Shown one piece after another: positions 42 to 1,242 of a DNA stretch of 64,000 nucleotides. The translations under genes and the position numbers were made by a program. This stretch comes from Desulfurococcales archaeon (GTDB taxonomy: Archaea > Thermoproteota > Thermoprotei_A > Sulfolobales > Acidilobaceae), in assembly GCA_015521115.1 (NCBI GenBank), contig WAOT01000004.1, positions 1-64,000 of the forward strand, in the 5' to 3' direction. Below the pieces are notes generated by a model. The model was given only the letters and a program-made list of their open reading frames with translations. It did not search any database and was not told the origin of the DNA. Position 1 is the stretch's first letter. Each line of letters opens with the position of its first letter.

Positions 42-236
42 TCATACCGGCAAAATATATTTGTTTTTTGTCAGAAAATTTTTATATAATTTCATGAAAT
101 ATCCATCAGTTATAAATAATCCAATTCCTTTAAAAATTAAGTGTAGTTTATTTTGGATGAAAACGTCTTTATTTGATATGGATAATCCATTATGTAATTC
201 ATAATCTGCATCATTCCTAAGTTGGGCATGTGACAT
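42..236 (-). CDS. Small hypothetical protein, doubtful
   Basis: A 64-residue open frame in very AT-rich DNA, rich in Lys, Asn, Ile and Phe. I recognise no domain or motif. The ATG has a GGTG-type SD about 6 nt upstream on the minus strand, which is the only positive sign of translation. It lies downstream of the tRNA half at 392-429 on the same strand. It could equally be a chance frame in AT-rich spacer. Confidence 0.28.
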   Translation of the reverse strand: MSHAQLRNDADYELHNGLSISNKDVFIQNKLHLIFKGIGLFITDGYFMKLYKNFLTKNKYILPV

Positions 237-365: not shown

Positions 366-391
366 AAGGTGGCCGGCAGCCCCACGCCTTA
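366..391 (-). other. GC-rich tail of the tRNA 5' half
   Basis: Directly after A37 the minus strand continues with TAAGGCG and an 18-nt GC-rich block, GTGGGGCTGCCGGCCACC (385-368), before the DNA turns AT-rich. Known split tRNAs have such a tail on the 5' half, which pairs with a complementary leader on the 3' half to form a bulge-helix-bulge splice motif. Part of the block (GGGCTGCC) can also pair with the D-arm segment GGCAGCCC of the half itself. Its function here is inferred. Confidence 0.5.
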
Positions 392-429
392 TATGAGCCC
401 CGCGGGCTGCCAGGCTACCCTACCCCGCT
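392..429 (-). tRNA. 5' half of initiator tRNA-Met(CAU); split-tRNA candidate
   Basis: Read on the minus strand, these bases give a perfect tRNA 5' half. The acceptor strand is AGCGGGG, positions 8-9 are TA, and the D stem is GGGT pairing GCCC around a canonical D loop with G18-G19 and A21. G26 follows, then anticodon stem strand CGGGG and loop CTCATA ending at A37. A1 and the three Gs at 29-31 are hallmarks of archaeal initiator tRNA, and the anticodon is CAU. After A37, the normal archaeal intron or split point, the sequence becomes a GC-rich tail (391-368) and then AT-rich DNA. I find no matching 3' half within several hundred bases downstream, and no permuted 3' half directly upstream. It is a split tRNA gene, an intron-bearing gene with a very distant second exon, or a fragment. 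Confidence 0.72.
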
Positions 430-465: not shown

Positions 466-474
466 GGGTTTATT
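466..474 (-). promoter_or_regulatory. Weak TATA-like element before the tRNA half
   Basis: The minus strand reads AAATAAACC about 37-45 nt upstream of tRNA position 1. This is the right range if transcription starts 10-20 nt before the mature 5' end. The flanking minus strand is almost pure A and C, so an A-rich match by chance is easy. Confidence 0.2.
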
Positions 475-489
475 TGGTTTTTGGTTGGG

Positions 490-681
490 TTATTCGGGTT
501 CTAGTGGTTGTTTTTGTGTTGTTTGGCAGTTTAGTTTTATGTTTTCTATTTGTATGTTGTATCTGAATGTGAGCTCGCATAGTTTGTCTTTTGGGATTAC
601 TGCTTTTTGTCCGTGTTCTGTTGTGATTATGACTAGTTCTCCTTTGTCTTCTGCGTGTGCGCGGATTTTTGTTTGGGGCAT
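490..681 (-). CDS. Hypothetical 63-residue protein
   Basis: An unrecognised small protein with a compact, plausible fold-like stretch (residues 13-35 alternate hydrophobic and charged residues, including ELVIITT) and a Gln/Thr/Pro-rich end. It starts 16 nt after the stop of the gene at 698-1108 on the same strand, so the two probably form one transcript. The coding strand is unusually rich in A and C compared with the purine-rich genes elsewhere in the window. No function can be assigned. Confidence 0.5.
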   Translation of the reverse strand: MPQTKIRAHAEDKGELVIITTEHGQKAVIPKDKLCELTFRYNIQIENIKLNCQTTQKQPLEPE

Positions 682-697
682 TTTGTTGTCCCCTGTT

Positions 698-1108
698 TTA
701 TTGTATGTTTGTTTGTTTTATTTTTAGTATTTTTGATATTATTCCTGGGTTTTTGACCTTGTTCAGCTCGTTTAGTGGGACGTATTCTGGTAGGGCGTAT
801 CTTGTCTTGGTCAGTTCAGCTATGGTGTTTGTTGCTTTGAGCTTGCTTAATATTTTCCTGAGCCTGTCCTCTCCGGCTATTCCCTGGAAGATCAGTTTGA
901 TCTCCTTCCATGATACTGGTGCTTTTGCCTCCGCTAGTGCTAGGAGTATTAGTTCCTCTAGGTCTTCGTCTGATAGTGCTGTTACTACGGGTATGTCTGT
1001 GTCCATCATTAGGTCTTTTGCTATCTCGTTGTATGCTTTGAGTACTTTCTCTCTTACTCTCTTGACTTTTTCTAGGTCTGGCTTGTACGTCTGCTGTCTC
1101 TGTACCAT
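698..1108 (-). CDS. Hypothetical protein, possible winged-helix C-terminal half
   Basis: A 136-residue protein of unknown function. I chose the ATG at 1108 because a GGGGGTGAG SD lies 7-8 nt upstream and a TATA box sits about 50 nt upstream. A longer frame to 1174 would run nearly into that TATA box. The N-terminal half is helical and charged. Residues about 45-110 (acidic helix, then SWKEI, then RLRKILSKL, then TRYALPE) resemble a winged-helix arrangement, so DNA binding is possible but unproven. It is the first gene of a two-gene minus-strand unit with 490-681. Confidence 0.55.
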   Translation of the reverse strand: MVQRQQTYKPDLEKVKRVREKVLKAYNEIAKDLMMDTDIPVVTALSDEDLEELILLALAEAKAPVSWKEIKLIFQGIAGEDRLRKILSKLKATNTIAELTKTRYALPEYVPLNELNKVKNPGIISKILKIKQTNIQ

Positions 1109-1157
1109 TCTTCTCTCACCCCCTTTCTCCCATGTTAATACAGTTGGTTGGTTCATG

Positions 1158-1165
1158 TATATAAA
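1158..1165 (-). promoter_or_regulatory. TATA box for the 490-1108 unit
   Basis: The minus strand reads TTTATATA, about 50 nt before the ATG at 1108. This leaves room for transcription to start near 1131-1133 and gives a short leader carrying the SD. Confidence 0.5.
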
Positions 1166-1242
1166 CTCTAACACTATACAAGGTAAACGTTATGTCTGGG
1201 AGAAGGGTTGAGGGTTTTTATATATTAGTGTTTTTAGAAATA

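Follow-up and report, generated by a model that had tools for sequence, protein, structure and literature searches.

An initiator tRNA-Met gene very probably opened by a homing endonuclease element in a crenarchaeote of the Aeropyrum/Acidilobus family

Background

Whether interrupted and split tRNA genes are ancient relics or the result of recent damage by mobile DNA is a long-standing question, and a 2014 review called for snapshots of the insertion event (PMC4033280). Split initiator tRNAs are already known, as are archaeal rRNA introns that bear endonuclease genes. In Aeropyrum pernix the two halves of tRNA-Asp are adjacent, separated by a 121-nucleotide (nt) spacer with an internal promoter, and are made as two RNAs (PMC3218864). 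A search of the open-access literature, with subscription papers outside it, found no archaeal tRNA gene with an endonuclease-bearing split or intron. Here we describe the initiator tRNA-Met gene of a crenarchaeote from the family of Aeropyrum and Acidilobus, one half of which lies in the window, the 64,000-nt stretch of contig WAOT01000004.1 that was analysed (contig C3 of genome G000). Judged from its sequence and from that of its relatives, this single gene was very probably opened between nt 37 and 38 (37/38) by mobile DNA that encodes a LAGLIDADG homing endonuclease with two motifs, and its halves would be rescued by the pairing of two GC-rich arms.

Two halves of one initiator tRNA gene

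Positions 429-392 of the window, read on the minus strand, are AGCGGGG TA GGGTAGCCTGGCAGCCC G CGGGG CTCATA, which is nt 1-37 of an initiator tRNA-Met. This stretch is identical in 38 of 38 positions to the intact initiator tRNAs of the congeners G001 and G003 (BLAST, E=1.2e-13), and chance is therefore ruled out. After A37 the sequence departs from that of the tRNA with TAAGGCGTGGGGCTGCCGGCC (391-371), and from there to base 1, where the contig begins, the DNA is AT-rich. An earlier note on this DNA had described the exact 5' half, the break, the tail and the AT-rich DNA correctly, and had reported that neither a T arm nor a 3' acceptor strand comes after it; within the window they are missing since the contig stops at base 1 before the insertion does. 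No tRNA was called by ARAGORN at the position of the 5' half.

The missing half was located on contig C12 (18113-18062, minus strand), where it reads GGCCGGCAGCCCCGCCTCGGAGATACACTCTCCCGGGCTCAACCCGGGAGGGTCAAGCCCGAGGTCGGTGGTTCAAATCCACCCCCCGCTACCA and is intact to the CCA. Nucleotides 1-37 are thus in the window, and A38-C39, nt 40-73 and the CCA are on C12. As the earlier note had anticipated for a 3' half elsewhere in the assembly, this half has a complementary leader, part of which, GGCCGGCAGCCCC-GCCT, is the complement of the window tail. Tail and leader form a duplex of -43.3 kcal/mol, the best that the tail gave with any of 14 leaders tested. C12 is the sole place in the genome that holds a candidate 3' half with a complementary leader. 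Three further BLAST candidates were rejected, those on C25 and C8 as parts of other tRNAs, by the surrounding DNA, and that on C54 as part of a tRNA-Arg. The string A38-CCCCG, by which the 3' half was expected to be recognised, does not occur, because a second intron, at 39/40, intervenes; a search with the pattern CCCCG...CCCCGCT gave 13 matches, about equal to the reversed-pattern control, and none of them is the 3' half.

An Rfam tRNA search and a BLAST search of the genome (1.73 Mb in 59 contigs, 99.92% complete) found no intact initiator tRNA gene in G000, and the only CAU tRNA among the Rfam hits read is an elongator (L001). A complete gene and no 3' half had been named as the outcome that would speak against a split gene, and the reverse was found.

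In a tblastx comparison, the genes upstream of the 5' half and the phosphoglycerate-mutase-like gene that follows the C12 half on its downstream side were found to either side of a single initiator gene in the congeners G001, G002 and G003; most of the genomes compared in this work are metagenome assemblies. At this syntenic locus the gene is uninterrupted in G001 and G003. In G002, a metagenome-assembled Acidilobaceae archaeon (JALVZQ010000007.1), the halves are 1.2 kb apart on the same strand, with a LAGLIDADG open reading frame (ORF) of 329 aa between them. Since three congeners share these flanks, the window contig and C12 almost certainly join, with the gap inside the insertion, so that the assembly breaks within the endonuclease gene. 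Rather than having been dispersed, the halves were very probably parted by a mobile endonuclease element that opened the initiator gene. The suggestion of a possible split gene accordingly stands as far as the 3' half, the lack of an intact gene and arms able to form a splice structure at 37/38 are concerned, and the description of the 5' half as isolated does not, both halves being placed by synteny at one locus split by the endonuclease gene.

The endonuclease and its insertion site

The AT-rich DNA beyond the tail is not empty, as an endonuclease ORF lies there at 236-42 on the minus strand. It shows 52% identity over 52 aa (E=1.6e-13) to the homologue of G021 in addition to its profile match, and the similarity resumes at 66-7 in frame -1 (64.5% identity over 31 aa, E=2e-9). 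The end of C12 encodes the C-terminal part of the enzyme (E=7e-5). The family is marked by a pair of LAGLIDADG motifs spaced by about 100 residues, in which the acidic residues D54 and D157 are invariant; motif 1 alone is visible in the window, and motif 2 would fall in the assembly gap. Single endonuclease sequences matched nothing in the PDB, but a profile of the family did, namely the I-DmoI portion of a chimera of I-DmoI and I-CreI (E=5e-4). LAGLIDADG_3 matches eight of nine members of the 37/38 type weakly (best E=0.002; G217 at 22.3 bits against a cut-off of 22.5), and a Pfam search with the single G002 protein gave no match. Close homologues are under purifying selection, with ratios of nonsynonymous to synonymous substitution of 0.21-0.26. 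No relatives were found in phage records or viral contigs, and at the G002 locus no Rfam match was found at E values up to 0.1, nor a group I intron catalytic core.

Among the 214 genomes of the order there are nine strong homologues, and every one of them interrupts the initiator gene at 37/38; the 3' part is in hand for eight, and the contig of G021 stops within the endonuclease. A tenth, from another family of the class (G217), is at the same position, so that in 229 genomes of the class 10 of 10 strong homologues, in families f1, f2, f9 and f13, share one site. This shared site suggests, indirectly, that the endonuclease would cut the uninterrupted allele. The enzyme tree is too poorly resolved for showing transfer between hosts. 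G084 has a piece of the endonuclease at 37/38 that is broken by a further insertion, G011 has only a decayed remnant, and G012, G030 and G005 have ordinary short introns. The insert in G084 follows the first endonuclease motif (L138:1480-3012) and resembles an OrfB gene of the IS200/IS605 type. Spacers of about 150-230 nt with a promoter-like element and no ORF were observed at 37/38 in G016, G024 and G033, and at 30/31 in G032 (L083, L084, L085 and L091); the initiator genes of these four genomes are candidate compact split genes.

Different endonucleases have entered the same gene elsewhere. In G029, G082 and G044 a LAGLIDADG ORF of another type, in antisense orientation, separates nt 30 from nt 31, and yet another type lies in the T loop in G157 and G159, where the tRNA gene is thus in three parts. 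The T-loop type of G157 is over the LAGLIDADG_3 cut-off (E=8.6e-14), and the copy in G159 has an in-frame stop; the T-loop arms of the two genomes differ by changes on both sides that keep the pairing. Positions 30/31 and 59/60 are also those of a split tRNA-Lys and of permuted tRNAs listed in PMC3218864.

Splice structures at 37/38 and 39/40

GC-rich leader and trailer sequences that are complementary to each other stand at the join of the two halves, as in the bulge-helix-bulge structure of a split tRNA, with a central helix that was read by eye and contains one A35-G mismatch. The arms of the splice helix covary between relatives, and their complementarity is kept. Among close relatives the energies of matched and mismatched arms do not separate cleanly, and for this reason complementarity and base changes on both sides were used here, not rank.

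Read by eye, the 3' half would have a micro-exon of two bases, A38-C39, and then an intron at 39/40, a reading that gives a mature sequence conserved in relatives. A hairpin lies between the C12 leader and C40 and folds well (z=-3.0). A similar 39/40 hairpin is present in every relative with a 37/38 endonuclease whose 3' half is in hand, for example GGAGACAC-ACTCCCGTAGGGGAGGTCGAT-CCCGAGG in G002, and its pairs covary (GAC/GUC in G002, GAU/AUC in G077, GGAU/AUCC in G087). The corresponding bulge-helix-bulge, taken from the sequences and not from a prediction tool, would be CCUCGG-AGAY-AC^A / GUCG-NN^C-CCGAGG. As the hairpin always accompanies the enzyme, this suggests that the 39/40 intron was copied along with the endonuclease. 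It is also present in the enzyme-free G005, and is missing in G016, G024 and G033.

On the minus strand the 5' part of the locus would run from a promoter through nt 1-37 and the 5' arm to the endonuclease gene, and the 3' part from a TATA-like element with a transcription factor B recognition element (BRE) through the complementary 3' arm, A38-C39, the 39/40 hairpin intron and nt 40-73 to the CCA. The endonuclease would spread by cutting uninterrupted initiator genes, which are near-identical across the family, repair then copying the element in. Rescue would come from the GC-rich arms, which may pair into a bulge-helix-bulge that the tRNA splicing endonuclease cuts and RtcB seals, joining nt 37 to 38. 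A second bulge-helix-bulge, in which CCTCGG of the leader pairs with CCGAGG of the exon, would serve to excise the 39/40 intron. Loss of the enzyme in relatives would leave spacers of 150-230 nt and thereby compact split genes. Genes for two splicing endonuclease subunits and for RtcB are present in G000. RtcB itself (C7:19892-22648) is a single frame of 978 aa that matches its family in two pieces set apart, which suggests an intein.

Several observations weigh against this account of the locus. The central helix at 37/38 carries the A35-G mismatch in the genomes with a 39/40 intron. The endonuclease of the window is frameshifted, by a real mutation or an assembly error, and is partly within the assembly gap; the 37/38 family as a whole is at or below the Pfam cut-off, and AlphaFold models of two enzymes made without alignments were poor (predicted local distance difference test scores of 55.6 and 42.3). 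The promoter-like element before the 3' half of the window genome, centred at -31, scores 8.5 bits, which 34% of shuffles of the AT-rich stretch reach. In AT-rich spacers generally the promoter score alone is not above that of shuffles, and position alone is consistent.

One RNA or two, and alternative explanations

Promoters were scored with a matrix derived from 29 tRNA genes of G000 (consensus AAACACTTATAACC). In 12 of 14 genomes, which are related and so not independent tests, the best site lies 27-36 nt before the 3' leader. In G016 and G024 this site scores 16.8 and 15.1 bits, above all 300 shuffles. The constant spacing of a promoter-like element ahead of the 3' half, together with a promoter before the 5' half, favours two transcripts, and the halves are probably made as two RNAs and joined by trans-splicing.

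It is possible, if rather doubtful, that the locus is instead a mobile intron spliced in cis, a single precursor of about 1.3 kb running over both halves and the endonuclease gene, in which the arms form the stem that closes a very large bulge-helix-bulge intron like those of archaeal rRNA. The arms are intron-like, wherever a relative has the endonuclease its halves share one locus and one strand, the 37/38 type of enzyme is in sense orientation, and the short introns of G012, G030 and G005 occupy the same position. The constant placing of the promoter-like element before the 3' leader speaks against a single precursor, as do the antisense orientation of the 30/31 type and the two-RNA tRNA-Asp of A. 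pernix (PMC3218864).

A true scattered split gene, with its 3' half at another genomic site as in Nanoarchaeum equitans, would explain why the halves are on different contigs, and the halves on opposite strands in G052 would be a parallel, but it is very improbable given that the genes flanking either half lie around a single initiator gene in three congeners and that the N- and C-terminal parts of the endonuclease are at the two contig ends. A dead fragment or virus integration remnant beside a working initiator gene is hardly credible: partial tRNA copies are a frequent trace of integrated elements (PMC3218864), but no intact gene was found in this nearly complete genome, the mature parts of both halves are free of mutations and the 3' half is whole, arm complementarity is kept across relatives, and the geometry is unlike the direct repeats of integrases.

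Features of the locus and further observations

Table 1. Features of the interrupted initiator gene in the window and of endonuclease ORFs at other positions of the gene in relatives
Feature	Position	Strand	Basis
5' half of initiator tRNA-Met, nt 1-37	392..429	-	anticodon CAU at 395-393; 38/38 identity to congeners
3' tail of 5' half, TAAGGCGTGGGGCTGCCGGCC, putative 5' arm of splice helix	371..391	-	complementary to leader GGCCGGCAGCCCCGCCT of C12 3' half
N-terminal part of LAGLIDADG homing endonuclease ORF, with first motif FKGIGLFITDGYF	42..236	-	profile E=4.3e-6; G021 homologue
Endonuclease continuation in other frame, KQIYFAGMKRETAESVLKTF, after frameshift near A-run, then contig end	1..66	-	G021 match
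BRE/TATA-like promoter element of 5' half, AAAACCAAATAAAC, centred 45 nt before A1	468..481	-	8.0 bits, 29-promoter matrix
Conserved upstream neighbour genes, ORFs 490-681 and 698-1174	490..1174	-	tblastx to flanks in G001, G002, G003
30/31-type LAGLIDADG ORFs	L090:1036-2187; L141:1276-2412; L096 (minus strand ORF, 373 aa)	antisense	G029, G082, G044
T-loop LAGLIDADG ORF	L128:486-1142 (-); L126		G157, G159

Some further observations were made in relatives (Table 1 lists the main features). In G082 another LAGLIDADG_3 ORF (L141:187-1065, E=3.6e-10) adjoins the 3' end of the initiator gene. In G052, from another family of the order (L088), the initiator halves are on opposite strands and 2.4 kb apart, with the break at 30/31; this gene is a candidate for one that is truly trans-split. 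The RadA-like genes of G029 and G021 (L118, L119) seemingly contain LAGLIDADG inteins.

Comparison with known systems

This case suggests how split tRNA genes can arise, as relatives carry the same enzyme at the same place. Congeners display the empty site, the site occupied by an intact enzyme and, in the window, a broken enzyme; other genera display remnants and enzyme-free split genes, all for a tRNA that is essential to the cell. On balance we incline to the idea that homing endonucleases repeatedly invade the crenarchaeal initiator tRNA gene, at 37/38, at 30/31 and in the T loop, which are sites of known split or permuted tRNAs, supplying the locus with arms that can pair and the 3' piece with a promoter, and that decay of the endonuclease gene leaves a compact trans-spliced split tRNA. 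If true, invasion by homing endonucleases would be a general way in which split tRNA genes arise. Because definite proteins and a defined target site are involved, the idea is testable in the test tube.

The split initiator tRNA-Met of N. equitans is the same tRNA with the same 37/38 join, but its halves are about 32 kb apart and no endonuclease is reported between them (PMC3218864). The permuted initiator tRNA of Thermofilum pendens is broken in the T loop at 59/60, roughly at the insertion point in G157 and G159, but has its halves in reversed order and no reported endonuclease (PMC3218864). In Caldiarchaeum subterraneum, mobile DNA is likewise tied to disruption of a tRNA gene within a population, that of tRNA-Thr (PMC3293823); there a duplicated tRNA fragment stands beside a full gene, with a putative recombinase and an integrase-like geometry, whereas here one gene was opened and no tRNA sequence was duplicated. 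Archaeal rRNA introns with LAGLIDADG endonucleases such as I-DmoI share the bulge-helix-bulge ends, the endonuclease gene inside and a distant similarity of the enzyme to I-DmoI. In contrast to these introns, the host gene here is that of an essential tRNA, the 3' part has a promoter-like element of its own, and a second intron lies alongside. The split tRNA-Asp of A. pernix, a genus whose named genomes fall in the same family as the window genome, has the same 37/38 join, GC-rich complementary arms, a promoter before the 3' half and adjacent halves; it differs in being another tRNA with a 121-nt spacer, for which no endonuclease gene is reported and a mobile agent has only been hypothesised.
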